Of a DNA stretch of 64,000 bases, positions 4,666 to 35,624 are shown one piece after another (position 1 is the first letter of the stretch; the number at the start of each line of letters is the position of its first letter). Source of the stretch: an uncultured Bacteroidales bacterium (lineage in GTDB: Bacteria; Bacteroidota; Bacteroidia; Bacteroidales; UBA932); NCBI GenBank assembly GCA_900320545.1, contig ONSU01000007.1, positions 54,543-118,542 on the forward strand, read 5' to 3'. The position numbers and the translations under genes were made by a program. The notes under the pieces were generated by a model. It saw nothing but the letters and a program-made list of their open reading frames with translations, was not told the origin of the DNA and made no database searches.

Positions 4666-5931
<1,266 letters not shown>

Positions 5932-5934
5932 CGG

Positions 5935-5964
5935 AAGGCCGGGTGCAATGCATCCGGCCTTTTG
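5935..5964 (+). terminator. Rho-independent terminator after metK
   Basis: Stem AAGGCCGG (5935-5942) with CCGGCCTT (5954-5961), extended inward by GTGC/GCAT pairs around a 3-nt loop AAT. The T stretch is short: TT closing the stem plus TTG. Confidence 0.8.
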
Positions 5965-6011
5965 TTGATAAAAATGTTAATAAAAAATTTTCAGAAGTCT
6001 GAAATATTGAG

Positions 6012-6068: not shown

Positions 6069-9000
6069 ATGAGACTAGCTCTAAAATCTCTCTCTCTCGC
6101 ATTCATTTCGATGTTTGCGGGCGTCGTCGCCTATGCTCAGGTGACGACAGCGTCTCTCTCCGGAAAGCTGGTGGACGCCAGCGGCGAGCCGGTTCCCGGC
6201 GCCGCCGCCGTCGCGGTCCACGAGCCCTCCGGTACTACTTACGGAGCCGTCACCAATGCGGATGGTCTCTACACCATCCAGGGTATGCGCTCGGGCGGTC
6301 CTTACAAAGTGACCTTCTCGATGCTCGGCTATCGCGACGCCCAGTACACGGGCGTTACGCTCTCCCTCGGCGAGACCTACAACCTCAGCGGGACCCTGGA
6401 AGAATCCACCGAGTTCCTCAATGAGGTCGTCATCACCGCAGCGCCTTCCTCCAAGTTCGTCGGAGAAAAGACCGGCGCGGCGACCAACATCAGCAACGAC
6501 CAGATCGTCGCCCTTCCGACGGTCAGCCGCAGCATCACCGACGTGACCCGTCTCTCGCCCTACGGCGGCAACGGGATGAGCTTCGCCGGTTCCGACGGCC
6601 GTACCGCCAACTTTACCGTCGACGGTGCCAACTTCAACAACAACTTCGGTCTTTCCAGCAACCTTCCCGGCGGCGGCAACCCGATCTCCCTCGATGCCAT
6701 TGAGGAGCTGCAGGTGGTGATCTCGCCGTTCGATGTGCGCCAGACCAACTTCATCGGCGGCGGTATCAACGCCATCACCAAGTCCGGTACCAACACGTTC
6801 CGCGGCTCGGTCTACGCCTACCACCGCAACGAGAATATGCGGGGCAACCGCGTCTACGACACCGAAATCCCCGGTGCCCGCGACAGAGACCGCAATACCA
6901 CGATCGGTATGACCTTCGGCGGCCCCATCGTCAAGAACAAACTCTTCTTCTTCGTCAACTTCGAATATTCCAAGATCCCGACCGTCGCCACTCCCTGGCG
7001 CGCCAGCACTGACGGCATCGGCAACGAGGAAAAGAGCATTTCCTACTGTTCGGTCGACGACATGCAGCGTGTCAAGGATTATGTGAAGGATAAATATGAA
7101 TACGACACCGGTTCCTTTACGGAGTTCCCGGCCAACGAGAACAACATCAAGGCCCTCGCCCGCCTGGACTGGAACATCACCGACAAGCACCACCTCGCCC
7201 TCCGGTACAACTACACCGCCAACAACTACTGGAGCATGCCGAACGCCTCCTCGATGGACGGCGGCACCCGTTCCCCTTATTCCCGCGTGTCGCTGTACTC
7301 GATGTCCTTCGCCAATTCGATGTATTCGATGAAGAACCTGGTGAATTCCGCCTCCCTCGACCTCAACAGCCGCATCACGGACAACCTCTCGAACCAGCTC
7401 CTGGTGACCTTCTCCAAACTGGATGACATTCGCGGTTCCAACTCTGCGGATTTCCCGTTCATCGACATCCAGGACGGCACGGGCACCAACACCCAGTACA
7501 TGGCCCTCGGCTACGAGCTCTTCACCTGGAACAACGCCGTGCACAACACCATCGCCACCATCAAGGACGACCTGACCTGGTACTATGGCAAGCACAAACT
7601 GATGGGCGGCATCAACTACGAGTATCAGATGGCCGACAACGCCTATATGCGTAACGGTACCGGCTACTACCGCTATTCCAGCGTCGACGATTTCCTCAGC
7701 GGCGCCGCTCCCGAGGTCGTGGCCCTCACTTACGGCTATGACGGCGAGGCCAATCCGGCGGCCCGCGTCCAGTACCACAAACTGGGCCTCTATGTCCAGG
7801 ACGAGTGGAATGTGACCGACCGCTTCAAACTCACCGGCGGCTTCCGTCTCGACGGCCTCTTCTTCGACAACAAGGACCTGATGACCAACCAGGCCATCTA
7901 CGATCTCGTCTACTATCCCAAGACCTACGACTATACCGAGCAGCACATCGACACCGGCAAATGGCCTACGGCCAGCGTGACGGTATCGCCCCGTCTCGGC
8001 TTCGTCTATGACGTCTTCGGCAACAAGTCCCTCAAGATCCGCGGCGGTACCGGCCTGTTCTCGGGCCGCATCCCGCTCGTGTTCTTCACCAACATGCCGA
8101 CCAACAGCGGTATGGTCCAGTCCAAGGTCGCCTTCAGCGGCAAGACCCAGATCTGGGACGGCAAGAAAGGCCAGCCCAAGAGCGGTTACGCCGGCTACAC
8201 CGGCCTCTATACGACCGACTCCAACGGCAACCGTTACATCGATATGAGCCAGTTCGCCGGTGACATCCTGTCCCGCAAGGATCTGGAGCAGAAACTCATC
8301 TCCATGGGCTTCCCCGCCAAGGTCAGCCCCGCCGACGGCACCGTTCCTTCGAGCATCGCCGCCGTCGATCCCAAGTTCAAGATGCCTCAGGTCTGGAAGA
8401 CCTCCCTCGCCATCGACTACAGCTTCCCGACTTCCTTCCCCTTCAGCATCACGGTTGAGGGAATCTACAACAAGATGGTCAACGACGTGATGATCTCCGA
8501 CTGGAGCATCCGTCCCGTCGAGGGCTTCGCGACCTTCAACGGCGCCGACAACCGGCCCATCTACCCGGCCAACTTCCGCAACGAGACCAAGGCCTTCGTC
8601 CTGTGCAACACCAACCGCGGTTACGGCTACACCGTTTCCGCCGAGGTCCGGATGCAGCCGATCCCGGAGATCAGCCTCTTCGCCGCCTATACGCATACGG
8701 GCAGGAAGGAAATCACCGGTATGCCCGGCTCCGACGCCGAGTCCGCCTTTACCTATGTGCCTACGAGCAAGGGCCCGAACAACATCCCCCTGCACAACTC
8801 CCAGTACGTGACCCCCGACCGCGTCGTGGCTTCCGCTACGGCCCACGACCACTGCGGCAACCACTTCAGCCTCATCTACGAGGCCTGGAGGGGCGGTTAC
8901 AACTACTCCTACATGCTGGCCAACGATATGAACGGCGACGGCTACCAGTATGACGCCCTCTACATCCCGACCGACAAGGAGATCGCCGACGGCGACTTCC

Positions 9001-9422
9001 GCTTCGTCTCGGATGCCGACCGCGACCGGTTCCTCTCCTTCGTCCGCAGCGACAAATACCTCTCCAAGCACAGAGGCCAGTATGCCGAGGCCTACAGCGT
9101 GTATTCCCCGTGGGTGCACCGGCTCGACTTCTCCTACAAGCACGATTTCAAGTTCCGGATCAAGAACAGTGTCAACAAGATCCAGGTCAGCTTCGACCTG
9201 AAGAACCTCACCAACCTCTTCCGGGCTCATTCGGGCGTCTCCAAGGCGATGAACTCCAAGCTCAACTCGGGCCGTATCCTCAAGTATGAGGGCGCGGATG
9301 CCGACGGCTACGCCACCTTCTCCACGCCGGAGGCGGTCGGCTCCGTCGAAACCTGGGTGCCTGTCTACACCATCGGACAGTGCTGGTATGCTTCCGTCGG
9401 TCTCAAGTATATGTTTAACTAA
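6069..9422 (+). CDS. Oar-like TonB-dependent outer-membrane receptor
   Basis: A 1117-residue outer-membrane receptor. A cleavable signal (ending AYAQ) is followed by a carboxypeptidase-regulatory-like beta domain (SLSGKLVDASGEPVPGAAAV, about residues 28-115), a plug domain with SRSITDVTRLSPYGG and NFTVDGANFNNNFG, and a long beta-barrel ending GLKYMFN with an aromatic near the C-terminus. The plug text IEELQVVISPFDVRQTNF and INAITKSGTN is typical of the Oar subgroup (named for the Myxococcus protein) rather than SusC. Its substrate is unknown. The downstream nuclease and OB-fold lipoprotein genes suggest nucleic-acid fragments, which is inference. It is the first gene of the locus and lies 18 bp before its lipoprotein neighbour. 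Confidence 0.9.
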   Translation: MRLALKSLSLAFISMFAGVVAYAQVTTASLSGKLVDASGEPVPGAAAVAVHEPSGTTYGAVTNADGLYTIQGMRSGGPYKVTFSMLGYRDAQYTGVTLSLGETYNLSGTLEESTEFLNEVVITAAPSSKFVGEKTGAATNISNDQIVALPTVSRSITDVTRLSPYGGNGMSFAGSDGRTANFTVDGANFNNNFGLSSNLPGGGNPISLDAIEELQVVISPFDVRQTNFIGGGINAITKSGTNTFRGSVYAYHRNENMRGNRVYDTEIPGARDRDRNTTIGMTFGGPIVKNKLFFFVNFEYSKIPTVATPWRASTDGIGNEEKSISYCSVDDMQRVKDYVKDKYEYDTGSFTEFPANENNIKALARLDWNITDKHHLALRYNYTANNYWSMPNASSMDGGTRSPYSRVSLYSMSFANSMYSMKNLVNSASLDLNSRITDNLSNQLLVTFSKLDDIRGSNSADFPFIDIQDGTGTNTQYMALGYELFTWNNAVHNTIATIKDDLTWYYGKHKLMGGINYEYQMADNAYMRNGTGYYRYSSVDDFLSGAAPEVVALTYGYDGEANPAARVQYHKLGLYVQDEWNVTDRFKLTGGFRLDGLFFDNKDLMTNQAIYDLVYYPKTYDYTEQHIDTGKWPTASVTVSPRLGFVYDVFGNKSLKIRGGTGLFSGRIPLVFFTNMPTNSGMVQSKVAFSGKTQIWDGKKGQPKSGYAGYTGLYTTDSNGNRYIDMSQFAGDILSRKDLEQKLISMGFPAKVSPADGTVPSSIAAVDPKFKMPQVWKTSLAIDYSFPTSFPFSITVEGIYNKMVNDVMISDWSIRPVEGFATFNGADNRPIYPANFRNETKAFVLCNTNRGYGYTVSAEVRMQPIPEISLFAAYTHTGRKEITGMPGSDAESAFTYVPTSKGPNNIPLHNSQYVTPDRVVASATAHDHCGNHFSLIYEAWRGGYNYSYMLANDMNGDGYQYDALYIPTDKEIADGDFRFVSDADRDRFLSFVRSDKYLSKHRGQYAEAYSVYSPWVHRLDFSYKHDFKFRIKNSVNKIQVSFDLKNLTNLFRAHSGVSKAMNSKLNSGRILKYEGADADGYATFSTPEAVGSVETWVPVYTIGQCWYASVGLKYMFN

Positions 9423-9440
9423 TAGAAGGAGGAAGACACT

Positions 9441-11585
9441 ATGAAACTCAGATATATTTTCACTGCGATCGTTTCTTCCCTTTGTCTGCTGGTCGCCTGC
9501 CAGCAGGAAGATCCCTCTTCCCTCGGCACCATTCAGCTTGAGAAGACATTCCTCACCATTCCGCTCGAAGGCGGTTCGGTCGACCTGAATCTTGTCGCCT
9601 CGGCGCCCTGGGCCTTCGCCAAGAGCGTGCTGATCAACAAGGATCCCGAGACCTATGCCGAACTTCCGGCCTGGCTCACCGCTTCCGCCCTTTCGGGCGA
9701 GACGGGCGCCGCGAAGATCACCTTCACCGCCGCCGCCAACGGCTTCGGCCGCGAGCAGGAACTCCAGATCAATACCGGATCCCAGATCCAGTACATCATC
9801 GTCCGTCAGGGTTCGATGGAGGCTGAGAAAGCGTCCTGCGCCGAGGTGATCGCCGGCGCCGACGGCAAGACCTACACCGTGACGGGTACCTGCACCTCCA
9901 TCGCCAACACGACGTATGGCAACTGGTATCTGAACGACGGCAAGGATGAGATCTACATTTACGGCACCCTCGACAAGGACGGCGGTACCAAGAACTTCCT
10001 CAGCCTCGGCATCGAGGTCGGCGACGTCATCACGGTACAGGGTCCCAAGACCACGTACGGCACTACGGTCGAGCTTGTCGACGTCACCGTCCTCAAGATT
10101 GTCAAGTCCCTGCTGAAGGTCGACAAGACCGAATTCAAGGATCTCGACAAGGACGGCGCCGAATTCAGCATCAAGGCCGCCTTCAAGGGCAACGGCGCTT
10201 ATGTGAAGGAGTGCCCCGACTGGATTTCCCTCGCTTCGACGGAATACATCACGGGCGTTCCCTCCAAGCTGGAACTCCACCCGGCCGACACCTCCAAGAT
10301 GACCTTCCGTGTCGCCCCCAACGAGGGCGTGACCCCGCGCGAGGGCATCATCAAGGTCGCCTCCACCGCCGGCAAGAACAATTCCGATATCGACATCATC
10401 GTCAGCCAGAAGCCGAACGCTCCCGCCCTGATGACGATCGCCGAGGCGCTCCAGAGCAGCTACGCCCACGTCAAGGGTACCGTGATGGCTATCTGCAAGC
10501 GCGGTTATGTGCTTACAGACGAGACCGGCGCCATCCTCTGCTACTACGGCTCCAAGTTCGATGCGACCAAGTATAAACTCGGTGATGTGATCGAAGTGAT
10601 CAACGCCACCAGCGCCTACAACTACGGCGCGCAGCTCAGCTGTGACGGCAAGGACGGATTCGATCTCGAAGAGAAGATTTCCGAAGGTAGCGGCAGCGTC
10701 ACCTATCCGACGCCCAAGGTGCTCGATCAGGACGGACTCGCCGCTCTGGTGGCCTCCATCAGCGGCAAGACCGGCACGAATCTCCAGGACGCCATCAAGA
10801 TGGAGTACGTACAGATCTCCGTGACGCCGAAGAAGAGCGGTAACTACACCAACCTCTTCCTGGATAATTATGATGCGGCCGACTTCTCCGCCTACCAGCT
10901 CCCCGCCGACTTCAATCTCGATTCGATGATCGACAAGAAAGTGACGGTCCGCGGCTATACGCAGTCCATTTCCAGCAGCAAGCACGTCAATATCGTCTTC
11001 ACCGAGATGATCGAGGGCGAGGCCGATGTGCCGACCATCGAGTACACCGACCTCAGCACGATCAGTTCTCTGGCTTCCGGTGCCGACTTCGAACTGACGG
11101 CCGTCGTCGCCTTCGTCACAACCAAGAATGATGCGGCCATCGTAACCGACGGTACCAACTTCTTCTACCTGTACAAGCCGGCCACAATGCCCTCTGTCGG
11201 CGACATCGTGACGGCCAGCGGCAAGATCAGCGTCTACAACCACCTCCATGAGTCGGCCCAGGCCCCGACCGTGACGGTCGTCGAATCCGGCGCCGAGCTT
11301 CCGGCTCTCACGCCGAAGGACATTACCGCCACGTACGGTACGTTCATCTCATCCAACGATCCGCATCCGGCCGATTACATCACGGCTGTCGGCACGTATG
11401 TCGTGGACGGTAACTACACCAACCTGGTCGTGGAAGGCTCCGATACCGTCAAAGGCAGCCTCAGCGGCAAGATCGACGCTTCCTGGAACGGCAAGAAGGT
11501 CCGCGTGACCGGCTGGTTCACCGGCTCCAACAAGGGCGGTACCTTCATCTATACGGATGTTACCAATATCGAAGCGGTAAACTAA
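9441..11585 (+). CDS. BACON/OB-fold lipoprotein, partner of Oar-like receptor
   Basis: A 714-residue lipoprotein (LVAC, Cys20). After the anchor come BACON-type beta domains (TFLTIPLEGGSVDLNLVAS...PAWLTASALSGE, and a second one around residues 225-325 with CPDWISLAS). Interleaved with them are at least three OB-fold-like modules: YTVTGTCTSIANTTYGNWYL, AHVKGTVMAICKRGYVLTD with 'GDVIEVINATSAYN', and FELTAVVAFVTTKNDAAIVTD with 'GDIVTASGKI'. Such OB modules occur in Bacteroidota surface lipoproteins, often next to nucleases. A Shine-Dalgarno-like AAGGAGGA lies 10 bp upstream of the ATG. The gene is co-transcribed with the receptor and closed by a strong terminator. Surface-exposed substrate binding is inferred. 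Confidence 0.82.
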   Translation: MKLRYIFTAIVSSLCLLVACQQEDPSSLGTIQLEKTFLTIPLEGGSVDLNLVASAPWAFAKSVLINKDPETYAELPAWLTASALSGETGAAKITFTAAANGFGREQELQINTGSQIQYIIVRQGSMEAEKASCAEVIAGADGKTYTVTGTCTSIANTTYGNWYLNDGKDEIYIYGTLDKDGGTKNFLSLGIEVGDVITVQGPKTTYGTTVELVDVTVLKIVKSLLKVDKTEFKDLDKDGAEFSIKAAFKGNGAYVKECPDWISLASTEYITGVPSKLELHPADTSKMTFRVAPNEGVTPREGIIKVASTAGKNNSDIDIIVSQKPNAPALMTIAEALQSSYAHVKGTVMAICKRGYVLTDETGAILCYYGSKFDATKYKLGDVIEVINATSAYNYGAQLSCDGKDGFDLEEKISEGSGSVTYPTPKVLDQDGLAALVASISGKTGTNLQDAIKMEYVQISVTPKKSGNYTNLFLDNYDAADFSAYQLPADFNLDSMIDKKVTVRGYTQSISSSKHVNIVFTEMIEGEADVPTIEYTDLSTISSLASGADFELTAVVAFVTTKNDAAIVTDGTNFFYLYKPATMPSVGDIVTASGKISVYNHLHESAQAPTVTVVESGAELPALTPKDITATYGTFISSNDPHPADYITAVGTYVVDGNYTNLVVEGSDTVKGSLSGKIDASWNGKKVRVTGWFTGSNKGGTFIYTDVTNIEAVN

Positions 11586-11591
11586 TGTTCA

Positions 11592-11616
11592 TCATTCCGG
11601 ACTCGATCCGGAATCT
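11592..11616. repeat. Dispersed palindromic repeat, copy 2
   Basis: 8-bp arms ATTCCGGA (11594-11601) and TCCGGAAT (11607-11614) flank loop CTCGA, followed by CT. It lies between the stop codon and the terminator. Confidence 0.8.
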
Positions 11617-11624
11617 TCCACTCA

Positions 11625-11657
11625 AGCGGCCCGTCCCTCCCGGACGGGCCGCTTTTT
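11625..11657 (+). terminator. Rho-independent terminator
   Basis: A perfect 12-bp stem, AGCGGCCCGTCC (11625-11636) with GGACGGGCCGCT (11642-11653), loop CTCCC, then a T run to 11657. It separates the receptor/lipoprotein pair from the next unit. Confidence 0.93.
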
Positions 11658-11731
11658 CAATATAACCTGGCACCAGGTTGAAAAAAGTGATGAGTTTGGA
11701 TAATGATAGATAGAATGACAAAAATTTTGGT

Positions 11732-11739
11732 TATATTTG
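11732..11739 (+). promoter_or_regulatory. Promoter -7 element for the nuclease unit
   Basis: TATATTTG matches TAnnTTTG exactly in an AT-rich stretch, 48 bp before the ATG of the 883-residue lipoprotein. The -33 partner is not clear. Confidence 0.65.
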
Positions 11740-11787
11740 TAAGACTATCCAGAAAGTTAAAATTAACTATAATTAAAACCATTCAAG

Positions 11788-14439
11788 ATGAAACTCAAAC
11801 ATCTGTTCTTTGCGCTTGCGGCGGCGCTTCCGCTGTTTTTCTCCTGCGAGAACAAGGAGAAGCCGCTGCTCCCGACCGTCACGGTCGAGCCTGCCATCGT
11901 CAACCTGGAGACCGGCGCCTCCGTCCAGACCGTCTCGATCCAGGCGGGCCGCGACTGGGTGGTTTATGCCAAGCCGGACTGGGTCGACGCCATCAATCCC
12001 GAGTCGGGTGCGGCGTCCGAGGACGGCGAGACCGTAACCTTCTCCGTCAAGTCCAACGCCGGCAACGACCGTGAAGGATACATCGTCTTCTCCACGGGTC
12101 TCGCCCGGGCCGCCTTCAAGATCGTGCAGAAGGGCGAAGCGGGTGCGCTTACGCCCGGTACCGGCACCAAGGAGGATCCGTACAGCGTCGCGGGTGTCCT
12201 GGAATATCTGAAGACGCTCGGAAACAATGTCCAGAGCCCTGTCGTCTATGTCAAGGGTGTCGTTTCCAACATCACGGAGGGCTACGCGGCGAGCGGCACC
12301 AACGGCAACGCGACCTTCTACATCAAGGATTCCCAGTCGCAGACCGAAGACTTCTACTGCTACAGGATCAAGTATCTGGGCAACAAGAAGTACACTGCGG
12401 GCAAAGACGATATCAAGGTCGACGATCAGGTCATTATCTGCGGCAAGGTCACGAATTATTCCGGCTCCGCCGGCAAGGTGACCCCGGAGACGGTCGCCAA
12501 CGAGGCATACCTCTACTCCCTCAACGGCACCTCTGAAGAGGGCCAGGAACAGACTGAGATCACCGACGCCACCGTGGCGCAGTTCATCCAGAGCGACGGC
12601 AACACCTATTACCGCCTGACCGGCAAGGTTTCCGCCTTCCAGACCGGTCACAACACCAACGGCAACTACGACTACATGCAGTTCAACCTGACCGATGCGA
12701 CCGGCACCGTCATCGTCTACGGCTTCAAGGACAGGGACGGTTCCTTCGCGGAGTGGTCCACCAAGATCAAGAATGGCGGCACCGTCGTCCTGACCGGCAC
12801 GTATGAGAAGTACACCGACAAGAACGGCAATGTCAAGGACGAGGTGATGAACACCACCATCGAGAGTTTCACCGAAGGCCAGGCCGAAGAAATCACCAGC
12901 GCCACCGTGGCTCAGTTCATCCAGAGCGCCGACGGTAAAATCTATCGTCTTTCCGGAAAGGTTTCCGGTTTCAAGGTTACGAATGCAGAGAAAGAATACA
13001 TGCAGTTTGACCTGACGGACGATACGGGAAGTATTCTTGCTTATAAGTTCAATAACGGAGAATTCAAAAAGTGGAATGCAACCCTCAAGGACAATGGTAC
13101 TGTTACGCTTACGGGTTCGTACTTGAAATACACGAATTCGAGCACGGGTGAGGTGAAGCATGAGATTGAGAATATTACCATTGAGAATTTCACGCCGGGT
13201 GCGGATATCCCGGCCGTGACCGGAACGGTATCTGACGCAGTCGCCGCAGCCGATGGTACTCCCGTAACCATCAACGACGCCATTGTCTCGGCCGTCAGCA
13301 CCAAGGGCTATTTCGTGACGGACGGCAGCAAGAATGTCCTCGTTTACAAGAACGCCGAGCCGACCGTCAAGATCGGTGATAAGGTCAAGATTGTGGCGAA
13401 GAAAACGACCTACAACAGTCTCCCCGAAATCGCGGATATTACCGGAGAAACCGTTATCTCCAGCAACAACAATGTCCCTTACACCGCCATCAAGGATCTG
13501 ACGACCACCATCGATAGTTATACGGCGACGGAGTCCGACTATATCAGCGCTACCGGTGAGGTCGCCGCTGACGGCAGTTATTGGAAAGTTACCGTTGACG
13601 GGAAGACGAAGTGGGTTTCGCCGCGCTATCTCCCCGCTACGTACGACCTGGCGTCACTCAGCGGCCAGAAGGTTATTATCACCGGCTATGTCGTGCAGAT
13701 TACCAATACCTATGTCGGTATCTATGTGAATTCCGTCAGTCTGGCAGATCCGAATGCCAAGTACTGCCGTGTCAGTTCGAAGGAGATTAACGTAAAGGCC
13801 GATGCGACGAGCGCCACGTTCACGATTACGGCCAATGCCGCCTGGACGCTGACCACGAGGCCCGGCGACGCCATTCGGGTATCCCCGGACAGCGGTTCCG
13901 GCAATGCCGAGGTTACGGCCACTTTCTCCGCCAATGCGGATGAGGCGGCAGGCAGGTCCTTTGAGATCGTACTTGCCTGCCCGGACGCCTCCGTCAATGA
14001 GACCATTACCATCAACCAGGCCAAGGCCGGCGCGGCAGGGCAGACGGAAGTCGAGTTCGACATTGCAGCGCTCGCTACGGCCAATAGTTGGGCCAATGGC
14101 ACCCAGTACGCGACGATCACTATCGACAATGTGACCCTTAAGGCATCGGGAGGCGGCAATACGGGTAAGTATTACACCAGCGGCACCCAGTGGCGCTTCT
14201 ACCAGAACGAAAGCGCCAAGCTGACGGTCTCCGTATCAAGCGGCGAACTGGCTTCCGCGACATTTACCTATGCCAGCCAGAACACCGGTATCCTGCTGGA
14301 TGCGGCCGGCGCGACGGTGGCTTCCGACAGCGAGGTTTCCCTCTCCGGTACTTCCGCCGTATTCAGTGTCGGCAATTCTACAGCCGGCACAACGAACGGA
14401 CAGGTCCGCTTTACCAAGATTGTCGTCGTAGTCAAGTAG
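11788..14439 (+). CDS. Multi-domain BACON/OB-fold lipoprotein
   Basis: An 883-residue lipoprotein (FFSC, Cys20). Order: an N-terminal BACON domain (VTVEPAIVNLETGAS...), an OB-fold module of DUF6359 type (TPGTGTKEDPYSVAGVLEYL, VVYVKGVVSNITEGYA), two tandem copies of an OB module (about residues 257-366 and 367-469, both opening TVAQFIQS and ending TIE.F), further OB modules (AIVSAVSTKGYFVTDG; ISATGEVAADGSYWKV), a second BACON (KEINVKADATSATFTITAN) and a C-terminal jelly-roll-like domain with SWANGTQYATITIDNVTL. The second tandem OB copy is visibly more AT-rich than its surroundings. Six bases separate it from the nuclease gene. It probably binds the nuclease substrate at the cell surface; this is inference. 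Confidence 0.82.
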   Translation: MKLKHLFFALAAALPLFFSCENKEKPLLPTVTVEPAIVNLETGASVQTVSIQAGRDWVVYAKPDWVDAINPESGAASEDGETVTFSVKSNAGNDREGYIVFSTGLARAAFKIVQKGEAGALTPGTGTKEDPYSVAGVLEYLKTLGNNVQSPVVYVKGVVSNITEGYAASGTNGNATFYIKDSQSQTEDFYCYRIKYLGNKKYTAGKDDIKVDDQVIICGKVTNYSGSAGKVTPETVANEAYLYSLNGTSEEGQEQTEITDATVAQFIQSDGNTYYRLTGKVSAFQTGHNTNGNYDYMQFNLTDATGTVIVYGFKDRDGSFAEWSTKIKNGGTVVLTGTYEKYTDKNGNVKDEVMNTTIESFTEGQAEEITSATVAQFIQSADGKIYRLSGKVSGFKVTNAEKEYMQFDLTDDTGSILAYKFNNGEFKKWNATLKDNGTVTLTGSYLKYTNSSTGEVKHEIENITIENFTPGADIPAVTGTVSDAVAAADGTPVTINDAIVSAVSTKGYFVTDGSKNVLVYKNAEPTVKIGDKVKIVAKKTTYNSLPEIADITGETVISSNNNVPYTAIKDLTTTIDSYTATESDYISATGEVAADGSYWKVTVDGKTKWVSPRYLPATYDLASLSGQKVIITGYVVQITNTYVGIYVNSVSLADPNAKYCRVSSKEINVKADATSATFTITANAAWTLTTRPGDAIRVSPDSGSGNAEVTATFSANADEAAGRSFEIVLACPDASVNETITINQAKAGAAGQTEVEFDIAALATANSWANGTQYATITIDNVTLKASGGGNTGKYYTSGTQWRFYQNESAKLTVSVSSGELASATFTYASQNTGILLDAAGATVASDSEVSLSGTSAVFSVGNSTAGTTNGQVRFTKIVVVVK

Positions 14440-14445
14440 CAGCCG

Positions 14446-15657
14446 ATGCGACGCGTTTCCCTAAGACAGATCTGGGCTCCGGTGGCAGTGCTTCTGGCAC
14501 TGTCACTGGGACTCGTTTCCTGCGAGAAGACCCCGCCTGCGGACAAGGCTCCGGAGATCTCCGTGAGCCAGACGATGCTCGGACCCGGCAAAACCCAGTT
14601 CACCGTCGTCATCAAGAAGGCGGAAGGGACCTGGACATCGTCCGTGGAATATCTTTCCGGGGAGGATGCGTGGATTACGGCGAAATCGCCGGAATCGGGT
14701 TCCGTGCACGGAATGGTGATGTACGAGGCGGCCGTCAATCCCGTCGAGGAGCAGCGCTCCGCCCGCATCGTGGTCTCGTCTTCGGCCGGGAGCACGTCGG
14801 TGACGGTCACGCAGATGGCGGCGGGCAGCGAAGTCCCCTCCGGCAAGGCCGGCAAGTGGCTGGAAATGCCGGAGACGCCTGCGGACGCGGGTTTCCTATT
14901 CGGTGCCCACGACATGAACGGCGATCCGTATGTATCGCGTACCGTGAGCGGCATCCGCAACTGGTCGTGCTGGTGGAGTCCCTCCGAGCATCTGTCGATG
15001 TGGGTGGCGTATCCGCTCAATTCCGGACTCAAGGGAAGCGGAAACCGTACGGAGGCCTGGGGACTTTTCGACCCCTGCTTCCCGAAGGAAGATCAGCCCG
15101 ACTGCGCCTATACTTACGGCGGCGGCTGGACCCGCGGACACCAGATTCCGTCCGCGGACCGGCTCAGGTACAACGGTTCCCAGAAATGCAACGAATCTAC
15201 GTTCTACCCGACCAACATGACCCCCCAGGAGTATGATTTCAACTCCAATATATGGGCGAATCTGGAGGGGGCCGTCCGTACCTATTCCAGCAAATGCGAC
15301 ACCCTTTATGTGGTTACGGGCTGCGACCTCAAGGCCGGCGCCTATGGCTGGAGCGGCGGGAACACCGGTTTCCGCGTCAAGGCCCCCGGTGCCTACTGGA
15401 AGGCCGTCGTCGCGTACAAGAAGTCTTCACAACTGGGCTTCTTCGGCTCTTCCTCGGACGGATATTTCTGCGGTTGCGCCTTCTATCTGCCTCACGATAA
15501 GTCGATTGCATATGGCAATTATCTCGACTATATGATGTCCATCGACAATCTGGAGAAGAAACTGGGCGTCGACCTGTTCGTGAATCTGCCCGACAGGATC
15601 GGAGCCGACAAAGCCGCCAGTGTGGAGTCTGCGGATCCCGTCAGTTTTTGGAAATAA
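14446..15657 (+). CDS. BACON-linked DNA/RNA non-specific endonuclease, lipoprotein
   Basis: A 403-residue lipoprotein (LVSC, Cys26) with a BACON-like domain (about residues 35-125) and a C-terminal NucA/EndoG-type beta-beta-alpha-metal nuclease. The catalytic signature is RGHQIPSADR with His232 (general base), followed by NESTFYPTNMTPQ, whose Asn and Asn/Gln belong to the Mg site. The usual leading Asp of DRGH is Thr229 here (TRGH), a variation worth noting. Members of this family cut single- and double-stranded DNA and RNA without strong specificity. As a lipoprotein it should act outside the cytoplasm, on the cell surface or in the periplasm. It is in an operon with the OB-fold lipoprotein before it and the EEP protein after it. 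Confidence 0.88.
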   Translation: MRRVSLRQIWAPVAVLLALSLGLVSCEKTPPADKAPEISVSQTMLGPGKTQFTVVIKKAEGTWTSSVEYLSGEDAWITAKSPESGSVHGMVMYEAAVNPVEEQRSARIVVSSSAGSTSVTVTQMAAGSEVPSGKAGKWLEMPETPADAGFLFGAHDMNGDPYVSRTVSGIRNWSCWWSPSEHLSMWVAYPLNSGLKGSGNRTEAWGLFDPCFPKEDQPDCAYTYGGGWTRGHQIPSADRLRYNGSQKCNESTFYPTNMTPQEYDFNSNIWANLEGAVRTYSSKCDTLYVVTGCDLKAGAYGWSGGNTGFRVKAPGAYWKAVVAYKKSSQLGFFGSSSDGYFCGCAFYLPHDKSIAYGNYLDYMMSIDNLEKKLGVDLFVNLPDRIGADKAASVESADPVSFWK

Positions 15658-15690
15658 ACGAGAGTCATCGAGAAACAAAATTACAATAGA

Positions 15691-16770
15691 ATGAAAAGAT
15701 ACTTCTTAGCACTGATTCTTCTTCTCGCCGTCCTCCCTGCGGCAAGGGCCCAGAAGAACACGTCGTATGTGATCGGGTTCTACAACCTCGAGAACCTTTT
15801 CGATACCTATCACGACGAAGGGAAGAACGACTATCAGTACCTCCCCGACGGTGATAACAACTGGACCGAGGTCAAGTACGCCAAGAAGCTGTACAATATG
15901 GCGCACGTCATCGCGGAGATGGCCCGGGAAAACGGCCGCTACCACACCGTGCTCGGCGTAAGCGAGGTTGAGAACCGTCACGCCCTGGAGGACCTGGTCT
16001 CCCAGCCGGAGATCGCCGACGCCAACTATCAGATCATCCACTACGACGGCCCCGACCGCCGTGGCGTGGACTGCGCCCTCCTGTATCGCCCCGAGCAGAT
16101 GCAGGTCGTCTCGAGCGAATCCATCCCCTTCGACTTCAACAGCGAGAAGATCCGCTTCGAAATGGACAAGGAGGGGCAGGATAACTTCCGCACCCGCGAC
16201 ATCCTGATGGTGCACGGCATCATCGGCGGCGAACATTTCGCCTTTTATGTCTGCCACCTTCCCTCCCGTATCGGCGGCAAGGGGCAGGACCTGCGCGCCC
16301 GCGGCGGCGAGATCGCCTACGAGCACGCCCGCAAGATGATGGCGGAGTTCCCCGGTATCAAGGTCGTCGTGATGGGCGATATGAACGACAACCCGACCGA
16401 TGACTCGATGGCTGTCTATCTCCGGGGCAAGGAAGACATCGATGACGTAGGGGAGGAGGATTTCTTCTCGCCGTTCCTCTCGATGTTCAAGGCCGGCTAC
16501 GGCACGCTTGCCTACAGGGGAGAATGGAATATCTACGACTGCATCCTCGTCAACAGCGCCCTGGCCCACGCGCCGAAGGGAACGCTCCGGATCCAGCCGC
16601 TCATCAAGAAGAAAAAGGCCCAGTACTACGGCCGCATCTTCCAGAAGCCGTTCATGACCCAGCAGACGGGGCAGTATGCCGGAACGCCGTTCCGCACCTT
16701 CTCCGGCGGACAGTTCATCGGCGGCTATTCCGACCACTATCCCACCTATATCGTCGTCAGCAAGAAATAA
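15691..16770 (+). CDS. Exported endonuclease/exonuclease/phosphatase family protein
   Basis: A 359-residue protein with a cleavable signal (ARAQ). Catalytic landmarks of the EEP fold are present: NLENLF near residue 26, GVSEVENRHAL with Glu92/Glu94 (metal), RRGVDCALLYRP, GDMNDNP with Asp230 and Asn232, and the terminal SDHYP with Asp348/His349. The superfamily includes DNase I-like nucleases, exonuclease III and phosphatases; in Bacteroidota this exported version is annotated only at superfamily level. Following a NucA-like nuclease, it could trim released oligonucleotides. The DNA-specific or phosphatase alternative cannot be settled from sequence. It lies 12 bp before the next receptor gene. 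Confidence 0.88.
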   Translation: MKRYFLALILLLAVLPAARAQKNTSYVIGFYNLENLFDTYHDEGKNDYQYLPDGDNNWTEVKYAKKLYNMAHVIAEMARENGRYHTVLGVSEVENRHALEDLVSQPEIADANYQIIHYDGPDRRGVDCALLYRPEQMQVVSSESIPFDFNSEKIRFEMDKEGQDNFRTRDILMVHGIIGGEHFAFYVCHLPSRIGGKGQDLRARGGEIAYEHARKMMAEFPGIKVVVMGDMNDNPTDDSMAVYLRGKEDIDDVGEEDFFSPFLSMFKAGYGTLAYRGEWNIYDCILVNSALAHAPKGTLRIQPLIKKKKAQYYGRIFQKPFMTQQTGQYAGTPFRTFSGGQFIGGYSDHYPTYIVVSKK

Positions 16771-16782
16771 TACTTTATCAAT

Positions 16783-19743
16783 ATGTCTAAGAAATTCTCT
16801 CTTACCTTCTTCGCACTGCTCCTCGGGACGCTGCTGTTCGCGCAGGCGCCCACGGGCGGCGTGAAGGGAACGATCGTCAGCCGTACGGACCGGCAGCCGA
16901 TCGAGAAGGCCAAACTCATCCTCTACCAGGGGGCGAACGAGGTCGCGACCGTGATGTCCGGCGAGGACGGTACCTTCCTCATCCCGGAACTGCAGAACGG
17001 GATGTATTCCCTGGTCGTCCAGGCTCCCGATTACCTGGAGACGCGGGTCGAGGTTACCGTCAATGACGGCTATGTCAAGAATATGTTCAACATTTCCGTC
17101 ACCGGCGTGCAGAAGGTGGCCGAACTGGAGGACGCCGCCACGGACGAGCAGGATATGGACGACAGCGGTTACAACGACAACCCGACCGTCCTGTTCAACG
17201 CCAACGATGTCTTCACGAACATCGCGGGCTACGGCTTCTCCAGCGTGCGGTTCAAGCAGAGGGGCTACAACAGCGAGACCCAGGAGGTCTATCTGGCCGG
17301 CGTCAAGCTCAACGACGCCCTCACCGGATACGGCCCCTTCTCCCTGTGGAGCGGCCTCAACGAGGCGATGCGTACCAAGGACAGTTCCGTGGGCCTGGAG
17401 GCGGCCGATTACAATGTCGGCGGCTTCAACGGCACCACCAACATCAATGGTACCGCCTCCGCGGTCCGCACGGGCCTGCGCGGAAGCGTGATGACCAATT
17501 CCGCCCTCTACCGCCTCCGTCTGATGGCTTCCTACGCGACGGGAATGATGGACAACGGCTGGGCCGTCGCGCTCAACGTGAGCGCCCGTCTCGGCGGCAA
17601 CGACTGGGTGGACGGCGTCTACTACCGCAACTTCGCCTACTATCTAGGTGTCGACAAGAAGTTCAACGACGCGCACAAGCTGAGTTTCGTCTTCTTCGCG
17701 ACGCCCGGACAGCGCGGCGCCCAGAACGCGGCCACGCAGGAGGTCTACAACCTGGTCGGAAGCAATATGTACAACTCCAACTGGGGCTACCAGAACGGCA
17801 AGGTCCGCAACGCCCGCGTCCGCAAGACGCACGAGCCCGTGACCTTCCTCAAGTACGACTTCACCCCTTCGGACAAGTTCAATCTCTCCGCGACCTTCCT
17901 CTACCGCTTCGGCAAGAACGGCTACACCGCCCTTGACTGGTACGACGCGCAGGATCCGAGGCCGGACTACTACCGCAACCTTCCGAGCTATTACTTCAAC
18001 GAAGAGGAAGACCTCAAGCGCAACAACGCCCTCAAATACGCCTGGGCCAACGAGATCTGGACCCATCCGGGCCTGTATCCCGAATACACCCAGATCAACT
18101 GGGACCGCCTCTACAACACCAACTACAACCAGGCGGACGGCCGTTCCAAGTATGTGCAGGAGGAGCGCCACATCGACCAGCACGACGTCAACTTCGCGAT
18201 GAGCGGCAAATGGAGAGTCAAGGACTGGCTGACCCTCACCGGCGGCGGCCAGGTCAAGATGAACCGTACCGAATACTATAAGAAGATCGCGGACCTGCTG
18301 GGCGGCGAATACTTCCTCAATATCGACAACTTCGCCGAGCGCGACTTCGCCTCCACGCCTTATATGGTGCAGAACGACCTCGACTACTGGCTCGCCAACG
18401 GCGCCGCCGAGGTGGTCGGGAAGGGCGACAAGTACGGCTATGATTACTACGCCCACGTCCGCAGCCTGAGCGTCTGGGGCAATATGAATTTCCATTGGGG
18501 CAACCTGAGCGCCAACCTCAGCGGCCGCATCGGCTACACCCGCTTCTGGCGTGAGGGACTGATGCGCAAGGGCCTCTTCCCGGGAACGGCGAATGAGGTC
18601 TGGGCCATCAACGCGAAGTACGGCACCGACATCCGTCCGGTCGTCGACAGCTTCGGCGAGGTGGTTACGTCCGCCGGCAAGTCCGATGTGGTCATCAAGC
18701 CCACCGGCGCCATCAAGGCCAATGTCAACTACGTGATCGGCAGCAAGATGCGCGTTTACGGCAACGTCGGCTATTTCCGCGATGCGCCTTCCTTCCAGAC
18801 GGCCTTCGTCTCGCCGAGGACCCGCAACACCATCACCCCGAACCTCCGCAGCGTGAAGACCTTCGCGGCCGACGTCAACTGGCAGTTCTCCTCCGGCGGC
18901 TACAATGTCCGCCTCACGGCCTACTACGCCAAGATCAAGGACCAGAGCAAGGTGATGAGCGCGTATGACGACATCCAGAACGCTTTCTCCAACTTCGTCC
19001 TTACGGGCATCGACGAGCGCCACTACGGCCTCGAACTCGGTTTCCGGATTCCGCTGGTGGTGGACGGTCTCGCCCTGCGCGGCGCCCTCGCCCTCGGCCG
19101 GGCCGAATACACCTCCATCCCCCGGATGATGCAGACCATCGACAACAGCGCGGAACTCATCTCCTACAACGGCAAGACCCTCGTGGACGTGCCCTACTGG
19201 GCGATGAGCCCCGTCTTCAAGAAAGACGCGGACGGCAACTATCCGACCGACGCGACCGGCAACTACACCTGGGAGGTCGACAAGTGGCAGCGTCACTATG
19301 TGCCTTCCTCGCCGCAGCTCGCCTCGAGTCTCGGCCTGAACTACTTCTATAAATACTGGTTCTTCGAACTGGACGCCCAGTATTTCGCCGGCACCTACCT
19401 CGACATGAATCCGCTCTACCGCACCGACTTCGCGACCGCAGGTCCGGACAATACCGTGACCCCGCTGGAGATCGAGTATATGACGGCCCAGGAGAAGTTC
19501 AAGGGCGCCTTCCTGCTGAACGCCAGCGTCGGCAAGTCCTGGTACATCAAGTACAAGTACCAGCTCGGCTTCTCGCTCAATGCGAAGAACCTCATCAACA
19601 ACCGCAACATCCGCACGGGCGGTTACGAGCAGACGCGTATCGTCGACAACACCATGGGCAACACCCGCTACTACCGCTTCGACCCGAAATACTTCTATAC
19701 GAGCGGAATCAATTACATGTTGAACGTTTATTTCAGATTCTAA
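16783..19743 (+). CDS. TonB-dependent receptor with N-terminal regulatory-like domain
   Basis: A 986-residue outer-membrane receptor. A signal peptide (LLFAQ) precedes a carboxypeptidase-regulatory-like domain (GGVKGTIVSRTDRQPIEKAKL, about residues 24-110), a spacer rich in Asp (ATDEQDMDDSGYND), a plug (NIAGYGFSSVRFKQRGYNSETQEVYLAGVKLND, split here only for reading) and a barrel ending MLNVYFRF with the terminal Phe expected of outer-membrane proteins. It lacks SusC-specific features and has no SusD partner. The partner appears to be the DUF5689 lipoprotein that starts 4 bp later. Genomic context suggests uptake of nuclease products. Confidence 0.88.
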   Translation: MSKKFSLTFFALLLGTLLFAQAPTGGVKGTIVSRTDRQPIEKAKLILYQGANEVATVMSGEDGTFLIPELQNGMYSLVVQAPDYLETRVEVTVNDGYVKNMFNISVTGVQKVAELEDAATDEQDMDDSGYNDNPTVLFNANDVFTNIAGYGFSSVRFKQRGYNSETQEVYLAGVKLNDALTGYGPFSLWSGLNEAMRTKDSSVGLEAADYNVGGFNGTTNINGTASAVRTGLRGSVMTNSALYRLRLMASYATGMMDNGWAVALNVSARLGGNDWVDGVYYRNFAYYLGVDKKFNDAHKLSFVFFATPGQRGAQNAATQEVYNLVGSNMYNSNWGYQNGKVRNARVRKTHEPVTFLKYDFTPSDKFNLSATFLYRFGKNGYTALDWYDAQDPRPDYYRNLPSYYFNEEEDLKRNNALKYAWANEIWTHPGLYPEYTQINWDRLYNTNYNQADGRSKYVQEERHIDQHDVNFAMSGKWRVKDWLTLTGGGQVKMNRTEYYKKIADLLGGEYFLNIDNFAERDFASTPYMVQNDLDYWLANGAAEVVGKGDKYGYDYYAHVRSLSVWGNMNFHWGNLSANLSGRIGYTRFWREGLMRKGLFPGTANEVWAINAKYGTDIRPVVDSFGEVVTSAGKSDVVIKPTGAIKANVNYVIGSKMRVYGNVGYFRDAPSFQTAFVSPRTRNTITPNLRSVKTFAADVNWQFSSGGYNVRLTAYYAKIKDQSKVMSAYDDIQNAFSNFVLTGIDERHYGLELGFRIPLVVDGLALRGALALGRAEYTSIPRMMQTIDNSAELISYNGKTLVDVPYWAMSPVFKKDADGNYPTDATGNYTWEVDKWQRHYVPSSPQLASSLGLNYFYKYWFFELDAQYFAGTYLDMNPLYRTDFATAGPDNTVTPLEIEYMTAQEKFKGAFLLNASVGKSWYIKYKYQLGFSLNAKNLINNRNIRTGGYEQTRIVDNTMGNTRYYRFDPKYFYTSGINYMLNVYFRF

Positions 19744-19747
19744 GGTT

Positions 19748-20941
19748 ATGAAAAAGTATATTGCAATTTTTGCGGCGCTTGTCGCCCTCGTTTCCTGCCG
19801 GAGTCTGAAGGAGGAATGGCAGCCGGTCGGCGGAACCCCCAAGGCCCCCGCGGAGTGGGATACGTATGATGTCTCGGGCATCACTTTCACGACCATCCAC
19901 GACCTCAAGAAGATGTACACCAACCAGGAATGGATCAACCTGACCCGCGCCATCGAGAATGCGGACGGCAAGGACCATTACATCGGCGGGGTGATCGTCT
20001 TCGACGATATCTGGATCAAGGGACAGGTCGTTTCTTCCGACCGTTCCGGCAACCTCTACAAAGAGGTGTACATCCAGGACGAGACCGGCGGCATCGATCT
20101 CAAGCTCGGCCGCGGCTCCATCTACAGCGAGTTCCCGCTCGGCATGTGGGTGTATGTCAACTGCAAGGACCTCAAACTGGGCGCCTACAACGGAATGCCG
20201 CAGCTGGGAGCCGAGCCCGACAACACCGATGTCAACGAATACGAGACTTCCTACATCGATCCGCAGGCGATCATCGACATGCACGTCAAGCGCGGTCCGA
20301 AGGGCGCTCCCGTCGCCCCGGCCGTCATCACCGAGCAGGATATCAAGGACGCAGTCTCTGCGGGTTTCACCGGTGAACTGTGGGGCAAATATGTGACCAT
20401 CAAGGGGCTCAAGTACAGCAAGGAGGTTTTCGCCCTGCTGTATCCGAATCCCAGTCTTCCCCACAAGAGCGCCAATCCCGAGAACCGTATCTTCCTCTCC
20501 GAAGCGCAGTGGGGGATCGACACCTGGGGAATGTCGGCCGCGAAGACGGTCGAATACGCCAGGAGCGGTGTCTGGGATACGGCTGAGGTCGGCAGCGGCC
20601 GCACCCGTTACGGCGCGGGATCCATTCTGAAGACTCCCGCCGAGGTCCTGCCCGCCGGCGGAGCCGTACTCGAGAGTTTCGGACCCGACAAGGATGTGAC
20701 ATATAAGGACATCCTCATCAAGTATGCGACGGCCAACTATGTGTCGCACTACTTCAAGGCCGGATCCACCGACATCCAGATCCGCACGAGCGGCTACGCC
20801 AAGTTCTCCGACGAGAAACTGGATCCGGACGTGTATGCCGGCACTTCGACCATCGACGTTACCGGCATCCTGTCGATCTACAGCGGTGCCGCCCAGTTCA
20901 CCCTGGTCGACGAGCCCGCCATCTCGGTGAAAGTCAATTAA
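19748..20941 (+). CDS. DUF5689 domain lipoprotein
   Basis: A 397-residue lipoprotein (LVSC, Cys17). The middle part matches DUF5689: TTIHDLKKMY, then ...DDIWIKGQVVSSDRSGNLYKEVYIQDETGGIDLKLG, an OB-like fold, with GMWVYVNCKDLKLGAYNGMPQLG. DUF5689 proteins usually sit beside a TonB receptor and an EEP or NucA nuclease in Bacteroidota, as here. Their ligand is unknown. The C-terminal part (YVSHYFKAGSTDIQIRTSGYAKF) also looks OB-like. The gene ends the locus and is followed by a palindromic repeat rather than a typical terminator. Confidence 0.85.
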   Translation: MKKYIAIFAALVALVSCRSLKEEWQPVGGTPKAPAEWDTYDVSGITFTTIHDLKKMYTNQEWINLTRAIENADGKDHYIGGVIVFDDIWIKGQVVSSDRSGNLYKEVYIQDETGGIDLKLGRGSIYSEFPLGMWVYVNCKDLKLGAYNGMPQLGAEPDNTDVNEYETSYIDPQAIIDMHVKRGPKGAPVAPAVITEQDIKDAVSAGFTGELWGKYVTIKGLKYSKEVFALLYPNPSLPHKSANPENRIFLSEAQWGIDTWGMSAAKTVEYARSGVWDTAEVGSGRTRYGAGSILKTPAEVLPAGGAVLESFGPDKDVTYKDILIKYATANYVSHYFKAGSTDIQIRTSGYAKFSDEKLDPDVYAGTSTIDVTGILSIYSGAAQFTLVDEPAISVKVN

Positions 20942-20992: not shown

Positions 20993-23020
20993 ATGAAGAA
21001 ATTCCTTATGACAATCCTTTCCGCTGCTGCAGTAATCGCCTGCCAGAATGCCAATCCCTTCCTGCAGGAGTGGGATACCCCTTACGGGACCGCCCCTTTC
21101 TCCAAGATCAAAACTTCCGATTACCTTCCCGCCATCAAGGAGGGAATCCGGCAGCAGCGGGCCGAGATCGACGCCATCATCGCCAATCCCGACGCCCCGA
21201 CCTTCGAGAATACCATCGCGGCCTATGAGCTCTCCGGGCAGCTGCTCGCCAAAGTGACGGGCGTGTTCTACAATCTGTCCGAGACCGACGGTACGCCGGA
21301 AATCCTCGCCCTGCTGGACGAGGTGACCCCGATGCTGAGCGAGGCCGAGGATGAGATTTTCCTCAACCCCGACCTGTTCGACCGCGTGAGAGCCGTTTAT
21401 GAGGCCTCCGAGGGACTGGACCGGGAGCAGCAGATGGTTACGAAGAAACTCTTTGACCGTTTCGTCCGCAACGGCATTGCCCTCGACGAGGCCGGCCGCG
21501 CCCGCTTCAAGGAGATCAACAGCCGCCTGGCCGTCCTGTCGCAGGAATTCGGCAAGCACCTTCTCGCCGAGAACGGCGCCTTCAAGGAGGCGACGGGCAT
21601 CACCGTTCCGGCCTATCCGGACTTCATGTCCTCCTGCGAGGACCGCGCCCTGCGCGAGAAGACCTTCAAGGCCTATTCTTCCCGCGGCAACCACGGGGAC
21701 GCCAACGACAACAACGCCATCGCCCTGGAGATCCTGAAACTCAAGACCGAGCAGGCCAACCTGCTGGGCTTCGCCACCCCCGCCGACTACATTCTCGACA
21801 ACAAGATGGCCGGAAACGCCGGCACGGTGGAGGAGTTCCTCTCCAAGATCATGGCCGCCTCGATGAAGAAGGCCAAAGAGGAGATCGCCGATATGCAGAA
21901 AGTGATGGACGAGGATGTCGCTGCGGGCAAACTTCCTGCCGGGACGAAGATCGCTCCGTGGGACTGGTGGTATTACGCCGAGAAAGTCCGCGCACGCAAA
22001 TACGACCTGGACGAGAGTCTCACCAAGCCGTATTTCCAGGTCGACAGCGTCCGCAAGGGCGTCTTCACGGCCGCGCATATGCTCTACGGGATCAATTTCG
22101 AGGAAGCGACCGACGTGGAGGTCTACAATCCCGTCGTCAAGGCCTATAAACTGACCGACGCCGACGGCTCGCTCATCGGCATTTTCTACTGTGACTATTT
22201 CTCCCGCGACATCAAGCGGGGAGGCGCGTGGATGAATAATTTCCGCGAGCAGTACGTCAACGCCGCCGGAGAGGACGTCCGTCCGATCATCGTCAACAGC
22301 TGCAACTTCCCGCCGGCAACGGAGGACGCCCCGTCGCTCCTGACGGTGGACGAGGTGCAGACGGCTTTCCACGAATTCGGCCACGCCCTTCACGGCTTCC
22401 TTTCCAAGTGCCGTTACGGCGACGTGAGCGGCACCAATGTCACCCGCGACTTCGTCGAGATGTTCTCGCAGATCAACGAGCACTGGGCCTTCGAGCCGGA
22501 GATCCTGAAGCAGTATGCCCACCATTACCAGACCGGAGAGACCATTCCGATGGAACTGGTGGAGAAGATCAACAACGCGCTCAAGTTCAACCAGGGATTC
22601 GTGACGGGCGAGCTCTGCGCCGCCTCGATCCTCGACATGGCCTGGCACGAACTCGACTCGGAAGACCTTGCTCCCATCAAGACGGCCGACGACGTGCGCG
22701 CCTTCGAGGAGAAGGTCTGCAAGGAGATGGGCCTCATCGACGAGATCATTCCGCGTTACCGCACCACCTACTTCAACCACATCTTCAACAGCGGCTACAG
22801 CGCCGGTTACTACGGCTATCTGTGGTCGGAAGTGCTTGACCGTGACGCCTTTGCGGAATTTGAGAAGGTAGAGCCGCGAGTCAATCCGGCCCTGGCGAAG
22901 AAGTTCCGCGAGACCTTCCTCGAGAAGGGCGGCAGCGAGGAGCCGATGACGCTTTTCCGTCAGTTCAAGGGTGCCGATCCCGATCCGTCCGCCCTCCTTC
23001 GCGGACGCGGGCTGGAATAG
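20993..23020 (+). CDS. M3 family oligopeptidase / peptidyl-dipeptidase Dcp-like
   Basis: A 675-residue zinc metallopeptidase with the M3 motif HEFGHALH: His460, Glu461 and His464, with the third ligand in the following helix region. The N-terminal half is the helical lid domain typical of Dcp and oligopeptidase A (for example TPYGTAPFSKIKTSDYLPAI). A signal ending VIAC (Cys17) suggests a lipoprotein, so it probably acts in the periplasm, cutting dipeptides from short peptides. It stands alone between the nucleic-acid locus and convergent manA, whose stop is 4 bp away. Confidence 0.92.
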   Translation: MKKFLMTILSAAAVIACQNANPFLQEWDTPYGTAPFSKIKTSDYLPAIKEGIRQQRAEIDAIIANPDAPTFENTIAAYELSGQLLAKVTGVFYNLSETDGTPEILALLDEVTPMLSEAEDEIFLNPDLFDRVRAVYEASEGLDREQQMVTKKLFDRFVRNGIALDEAGRARFKEINSRLAVLSQEFGKHLLAENGAFKEATGITVPAYPDFMSSCEDRALREKTFKAYSSRGNHGDANDNNAIALEILKLKTEQANLLGFATPADYILDNKMAGNAGTVEEFLSKIMAASMKKAKEEIADMQKVMDEDVAAGKLPAGTKIAPWDWWYYAEKVRARKYDLDESLTKPYFQVDSVRKGVFTAAHMLYGINFEEATDVEVYNPVVKAYKLTDADGSLIGIFYCDYFSRDIKRGGAWMNNFREQYVNAAGEDVRPIIVNSCNFPPATEDAPSLLTVDEVQTAFHEFGHALHGFLSKCRYGDVSGTNVTRDFVEMFSQINEHWAFEPEILKQYAHHYQTGETIPMELVEKINNALKFNQGFVTGELCAASILDMAWHELDSEDLAPIKTADDVRAFEEKVCKEMGLIDEIIPRYRTTYFNHIFNSGYSAGYYGYLWSEVLDRDAFAEFEKVEPRVNPALAKKFRETFLEKGGSEEPMTLFRQFKGADPDPSALLRGRGLE

Positions 23021-33142: not shown

Positions 33143-33151
33143 AGTCTTGGG

Positions 33152-33823: not shown

Positions 33824-33827
33824 AGTT

Positions 33828-35618: not shown

Positions 35619-35624
35619 AGACTA

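Follow-up and report, generated by a model that had tools for sequence, protein, structure and literature searches.

The stretch of DNA analyzed here (the window) comprises 64,000 nucleotides from an uncultured Bacteroidales bacterium (contig ONSU01000007.1, positions 54,543 to 118,542, forward strand), and our subject is a locus at positions 6069..20941 of the window, in which seven consecutive open reading frames (ORFs) encode proteins of 1117, 714, 883, 403, 359, 986, and 397 amino acids (aa). The genes, coordinates, and lengths given by a first-pass annotation, made from the letters alone, proved correct, and the families that it named are backed by Pfam. Two of the genes, coding for a receptor that we term T2 and for a DUF5689 lipoprotein, are firmly homologous by sequence to a gene pair involved in transformation of Riemerella anatipestifer, and the five genes between 11788 and 20941 probably constitute an outer-membrane DNA-import module. 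G and L numbers label the compared genomes and loci, respectively, G000 being the window genome. The features of the locus are as follows:

6069..9422, + strand: T1, Oar-like TonB-dependent-receptor-type outer-membrane protein (PF25183, PF13620, PF00593), first putative transcription unit
9441..11585, + strand: 714-aa BACON lipoprotein (PF13004; lipobox by eye), last gene of the first putative unit
11624..11654, + strand: strong terminator-like hairpin separating the two putative units (fold -27.9 kcal/mol, z -7.2; 0/200 shuffles as stable)
11732..11739, + strand: TATATTTG, promoter-like element 5' of the second unit, fitting TAnnTTTG
11788..14439, + strand: 883-aa OB/BACON lipoprotein (PF13004, PF01336, PF13742), first gene of the second putative unit
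14446..15657, + strand: NucA/EndA-superfamily (Endonuclease_NS, PF01223) nuclease lipoprotein, 403 aa, candidate entry nuclease
15691..16770, + strand: EEP-fold nuclease/phosphatase, 359 aa, Sec-type signal (PF19580, Exo_endo_phos_3, E 3e-89)
16783..19743, + strand: T2, TonB-dependent-receptor-superfamily protein, 986 aa, homologue of RA0C_RS04915 by sequence homology
19748..20941, + strand: DUF5689 lipoprotein, 397 aa, homologue of RA0C_RS04920 (PF18942, E 8e-39)

Encoded proteins and putative transcription units

T1 carries CarboxypepD_reg and an OMP_b-brl_4 barrel (Pfam). Both larger lipoproteins had been described at first pass as OB/BACON proteins, a description that held for BACON in each of them (in two stretches of the 883-aa protein) and for OB folds in the 883-aa protein, which alone among the seven scored above the cut-off; the OB match of the 714-aa protein fell below it (E 4e-4; 20.7 bits versus 27 required), as did that of the 397-aa DUF5689 lipoprotein (Pfam). 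The gene that takes the place of the 883-aa lipoprotein in G270 carries a DUF5689 domain.

The 403-aa protein combines Endonuclease_NS (E 2e-25) with BACON (Pfam), and aligns with the Anabaena NucA structures 2o3b and 1zm8 across the RGH and N..W..LE motifs. Its TRGH starts at residue 229, which bears out the RGH motif with His232 noted earlier, and RGH is kept in 8/8 rows from the genus; we take the RGH and the Asn to be metal-site/catalytic residues of the NucA/EndA superfamily. In the EEP protein, residues E94, H189, D230, N232, D348, and H349 are invariant in 20/20 aligned homologues, and presumably represent the catalytic Glu, His, Asp-x-Asn, and C-terminal Asp-His of the EEP fold. Because it has a Sec-type signal and, by eye, no lipobox, the EEP protein is probably periplasmic, although one same-genus homologue, at L036, has a lipobox-like Cys. 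A search of the PDB with profiles of the EEP and DUF5689 proteins returned no match.

No SusD or glycosidase was matched by Pfam among the seven proteins, consistent with the earlier statement that none is present. The locus resembles Sus-like polysaccharide utilization loci in its TonB-type receptor, surface lipoproteins, and hydrolases, but differs from them in lacking a match to SusD or a glycosidase, and a Sus-like reading was rejected on that ground.

A strong hairpin followed by a promoter-like element separates the 714-aa from the 883-aa gene, and we therefore discarded a single seven-gene operon in favor of two units: T1 and the 714-aa gene are probably one transcription unit, whereas the 883-aa, NucA-type, EEP, T2, and DUF5689 genes look like a second, perhaps together with a downstream M3-family peptidase gene (described below). 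This arrangement weakens the earlier proposal that two receptors and two kinds of lipoprotein operate as one system. In 7/8 loci of the genus, the window included, a hairpin of -19 to -29 kcal/mol falls in the gap between the units, as judged from fold energies only. Likewise, TAnnTTTG, which we take to be the Bacteroidota -7-type promoter element, lies 23-48 bp before the next start in 7/8 loci by raw count, again including the window; it precedes the NucA-type gene at L040 and L047 and the 883-aa homologue at the others. The eighth genus locus, L042, has neither hairpin nor element in this gap. The other intergenic gaps of the window locus measure 4-51 bp. In scans of the whole window, the full two-box promoter pattern matched six times, never at this locus, sigma-70-type promoters were found no better than in shuffles, and a terminator scan gave 18 candidates versus 14.0 (sd 4.2) expected by chance, the 11624..11654 hairpin being absent from its list.

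Within the genus, we compared 24 other genomes, many of them incomplete, and found full-length T2 in 15, a partial T2 in one, and none in eight, the last being 58-88% complete. At nine same-genus loci chosen by their T2 match, homologues of the NucA-type and EEP genes were present in 9/9, full-length T2 with DUF5689 in 8/9, and T1 in 7/9, one of the two T1 misses being cut by a contig end. These counts, as well as those of NucA and EEP neighbors given below for 71 loci of the order, were made without masking by opposite-strand ORFs.

Homology with the Riemerella pair and its conservation

The portions of PMC8459023 on which we draw report that RA0C_RS04915 and RA0C_RS04920 of R. anatipestifer are adjacent, and that markerless deletion of either gene brings transformation below detection, whereas markerless deletion of the SusC-type receptor gene RS09840 has no effect. 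As described there, the pair was found by a genetic screen and has no similarity to known transformation machinery; RA0C_RS04915 is a CarboxypepD_reg outer-membrane protein, RA0C_RS04920 carries DUF5689 and DUF5017, and the tags of ComEC and RecA are RS04895 and RS04870, respectively. The same portions are inconsistent with regard to distribution, placing homologues widely in Bacteroidetes, yet that of RS04915 in Flavobacteriaceae only.

T2 of the window aligned with its R. anatipestifer counterpart at 28.6% identity over 1021 columns (E 2e-100), and the DUF5689 protein at 24.7% over 146 columns (E 3e-9; both blastp), while the EEP protein showed 31% identity (E 4e-51). In a tree, 21 T2 rows, including those of the window and Riemerella, split from six other receptors at a 100/100 branch. 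The gene order in G336 is RecA, four genes, ComEC, two genes, EEP, T2, and DUF5689, the five named genes being assigned by Pfam with DUF5017 below cut-off; on the R. anatipestifer CCUG25054 scaffold (G350), the order is equal by ORF lengths. Because the G336 order matches the published tag spacing, RS04910 would be the EEP nuclease. The window thus shares with the Riemerella pair the CarboxypepD_reg receptor family, a DUF5689 gene directly downstream, and an adjoining PF19580 nuclease gene. It differs in that its EEP gene is co-directional (divergent in Riemerella), in its additional NucA-type nuclease and OB/BACON lipoproteins, in its short ComEC encoded elsewhere in the genome, and in that its DUF5689 protein, like two further homologues tested, gave no DUF5017 match. 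Proximity of T2 to ComEC did not hold as a general rule: the two genes are 4.4 kb apart in just three of six Riemerella-genus genomes, ~12 kb apart in one, and on separate contigs in two, and they are far apart in G135. Of the 120 genomes in G135's family, 115 have a T2 match at E<=1e-100, the weakest of these being to broken or diverged copies, and 116 have a ComEC match.

Pfam matched CarboxypepD_reg in T2. A T2 profile aligned with a profile of six other receptors (four of which were tested with Pfam, all four carrying Plug) at an hhalign E of 3e-108 over 830 columns, and because this alignment spans the plug we place T2, as a diverged protein, in the TonB-dependent receptor superfamily. 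Its N-terminal domain and plug are separated by an acidic segment, and the weak PDB match of T2 is to the copper receptor OprC (E 6e-4).

We surveyed 247 Bacteroidota genomes with cuts of >=569 bits for T2 (next score, 278) and E<=6e-31 for DUF5689 (next genome, 3e-20), both picked after the score gaps had been seen. T2 and strong DUF5689 matches were present in the identical 39 genomes, and the two genes were adjacent in 38 of these, the exception being G057, where they lie on separate contigs. All 39 belong to the window's class (36/58 same-class genomes, 2/2 of the same order, and the window itself, compared with 0/186 others), and at least 24 of them have a PF19580 EEP gene beside T2. In the window's order, T2 was counted in 70/148 genomes at >=640 bits. 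Examination of 71 T2 copies of the order (>400 bits; one at 452, two from one genome) placed DUF5689 next downstream in 66, two of the five misses being at contig ends; a recount without masking gave 64/71, with L189, L208, and L220 dropped, probably by a too-tight distance rule, and L241 gained. An EEP gene lies near T2 in 51/71 of these loci (47 divergent, 4 co-directional), and a NucA-type gene in 8/71. The synteny check proposed at first pass thus found DUF5689, EEP, and T2 kept together, but the NucA-type gene in some lineages only. A T1-like gene near T2 was found in just one of the 71 (L194, same genus), and also at L090 in a set of 20 loci, which speaks against the earlier idea of two receptors in one system. 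At 63 named loci with T2 >400 bits (a 64th, whose T2 is partial, was set aside), DUF5689 adjoins T2 in 63/63 and EEP in 61/63. In the window, the DUF5689 gene follows T2 after 4 bp on the same strand. The genes run co-directionally as NucA-EEP-T2-DUF5689 in the window's family and also in G270 and G278, which the tree places closest to it.

Several irregular copies were encountered: G461, which belongs to the order, has two T2-DUF5689 copies (L227, L230), a second EEP gene lies a few genes off at L101, and T2 is truncated or stop-broken at L047 (G019), G262:C19, and G293:C1.

A predicted DNA-import module and competing explanations

The window genome encodes DprA and, in a 329-aa frame, a multi-HhH protein; its ComF-like match of 74 bits is below the model cut-off, as is that of R. 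anatipestifer at 93. The channel domain of ComEC occupies an intact 366-aa frame, and the frames of G404 and G505 are similar (373 and 365 aa, respectively). By eye, the short channel-only ComEC lies beside acetate kinase at L242 (G000:C22), L243 (G404), and L244 (G505). Throughout the order, ComEC was found in 143/148 genomes and DprA in 147/148. A strict link between T2 and ComEC was rejected, in that all five genomes without a ComEC match carry T2; in a sixth case, G473, which is not one of the genomes counted for T2, ComEC was matched only in broken form and below cut-off. In the Riemerella family, G307 and G329 have a diverged T2 with neither DUF5689 nor EEP beside it, and no ComEC match, as if the module decays once the inner-membrane channel is lost.

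That the second unit (11788-20941) imports DNA across the outer membrane is, as stated, the reading that we consider probable. It is argued for by the Riemerella homologues of T2 and the DUF5689 protein, each essential for transformation, and by the place of T2 in the TonB-dependent receptor superfamily. Further support comes from the kept synteny of the pair with EEP, from the poor transformation of tonBA and tonBB mutants of R. anatipestifer (of which only tonBB is iron-impaired, according to the portions of PMC8383284 used here), from the role of EndA of Streptococcus pneumoniae and NucM of Moraxella catarrhalis, of the Nuc superfamily, as entry nucleases in transformation (PMC6384898, in part), from the presence of competence genes, and from the absence of DUF5689 and EEP where ComEC is unmatched in G307 and G329. 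The more general suggestion of the first-pass annotation, nucleic-acid handling outside the cell or in the periplasm, is likewise favored by the homology of T2 and DUF5689 with the transformation pair and by the motifs kept in both nuclease families.

We envisage that the DUF5689 and 883-aa OB/BACON lipoproteins would capture DNA at the cell surface, where the NucA/EndA-type lipoprotein may nick or shorten it. T2 would then move the DNA through the outer membrane by TonB energy, with no need of a type IV pilus, and the periplasmic EEP nuclease could trim it or render it single-stranded. Finally, the multi-HhH protein and the ComEC channel may pass the DNA to DprA and RecA, unless it is degraded for nutrients. 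T1 and the 714-aa lipoprotein would form a neighboring unit, to which this scheme gives no role.

Type IV pilus/PilQ uptake in other Gram-negative bacteria delivers DNA to ComEC-type channels, and the window would differ from it in using a TonB-dependent superfamily receptor instead of pilus and secretin; pilus genes were not searched for in the window genome. The NucA-type nuclease shares superfamily and RGH motif with EndA and NucM, but is a BACON lipoprotein whose gene shares a putative unit with that of an outer-membrane receptor, and its role is a predicted one. In the Riemerella model, double-stranded DNA becomes single-stranded by an unknown mechanism, ComEC being one possibility, and 'endonuclease' in the main text of that paper refers to restriction enzymes only (PMC8459023). 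From its position beside T2, the EEP protein is a candidate for this strand-processing step. Pneumococcus uses EndA, and the beta-lactamase domain of its ComEC is probably inactive (PMC12455585, in part); by analogy, this case is a suggestive parallel to the NucA-type gene and short ComEC of the window. A strict link of that gene with a short ComEC was rejected, since G270 and G278 have the nuclease together with ComEC frames of >700 aa.

Several points weigh against DNA import. T2 gave no match to the Pfam Plug (PF07715) or to any Pfam barrel and shows no clear TonB box, identity between window and Riemerella proteins is low (25-31%), and EEP was not found near T2 in 20/71 loci of the order, four of these at contig ends. 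By length and position, ComEC in the window's family (365-373 aa) is without its OB and beta-lactamase domains; short ComEC variants exist, but transformation by them has yet to be demonstrated, as stated in the part of PMC12455585 consulted. Almost every genome of the order has ComEC and DprA, so that finding them here carries little weight. The five ComEC-negative T2 genomes imply, unless incomplete, that T2 can exist without the known inner-membrane channel, and the lack of a ComEC match may be real, since two of the five belong to one genus. In addition, the authors of PMC8383284 offer, in the same portions, a nutritional explanation of the tonBA effect.

A competing explanation, that of the first-pass annotation, is nutritional scavenging, in which the proteins would capture and cleave DNA or RNA and bring in the fragments for phosphorus, nitrogen, or nucleosides, with little or none of the material recombined. 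We consider this rather unlikely, albeit worth serious attention: the window's lineage has added the NucA-type nuclease and extra OB/BACON lipoproteins and has cut ComEC down to its channel domain, and T2 is present in the five genomes without a ComEC match, but the sole tested homologues serve transformation, genes for DprA, the multi-HhH protein, and ComF-like protein are present, and no phosphate or nucleoside transporter was matched among the seven proteins (Pfam). The pair's tie to transformation comes from R. anatipestifer alone, and this analogy does not decide between feeding and transformation in the window's organism. That T2 is an ordinary TonB-dependent receptor for a nucleotide, metal, or peptide, the Riemerella defect being indirect, seems improbable to us. 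The effect of TonB on transformation is partly via iron (PMC8383284, in the portions cited), and T2 weakly matches OprC; however, loss of either member of the pair is enough to stop transformation, deletion of the SusC-type RS09840 being neutral (PMC8459023, likewise), and many genomes of the class have a nuclease gene of one family next to the pair. We assign a very small probability to a unit that degrades extracellular DNA in defense, biofilm, or trap clearance, with a receptor that merely assembles or anchors the lipoproteins; NucM, a NucA-superfamily nuclease, also affects biofilm (PMC6384898, in the part consulted), yet it is the receptor and DUF5689 that stay together, and the NucA-type gene is nearby in so few loci of the order.

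Returning to DNA import, a broader version, which we put forward only tentatively, is that the class of Riemerella and the window has a translocator of its own, composed of a pilus-independent, TonB-powered T2, an OB-type DUF5689 capture lipoprotein, and an EEP strand processor, and that the window's lineage gained an EndA-type nuclease and OB lipoproteins while its ComEC lost the OB and nuclease domains. How DNA crosses the outer membrane in this phylum is largely an open question. Roughly half of the sampled genomes of the window's order are now seen to carry the pair, which is tied to a single nuclease family throughout the class and, in the lineage of the window, to an entry-nuclease superfamily as well; if a role in import is true, it would provide the order with a route for gene transfer or DNA feeding that is testable gene by gene. 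Among the literature matches listed, we recognized no report on the T2/DUF5689 pair beyond the Riemerella papers, although a paper naming DUF5689 alone could be missed.

Flanking features and related genes elsewhere

Two further features flank the locus:

5930..5966, + strand: terminator-like hairpin 3' of metK, bounding the locus upstream (fold -28.2 kcal/mol, z -5.9)
20993..23020, + strand: M3-family peptidase gene (PF01432), possibly co-transcribed, probably outside the core

The peptidase gene starts 51 bp after the DUF5689 gene and adjoins the locus in 5/9 same-genus loci. Farther along the window, at 29649-42721, another series of frames with signal-like starts lies beside a frame of ~1037 aa. 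Other DUF5689-like lipoproteins of the window genome (L247 and L248, on G000:C19 and C26) stand among large exported proteins, in what by eye are SusC/SusD-like loci, and its second PF19580 EEP gene (L246, G000:C32) has no receptor-sized frame that we recognized beside it.

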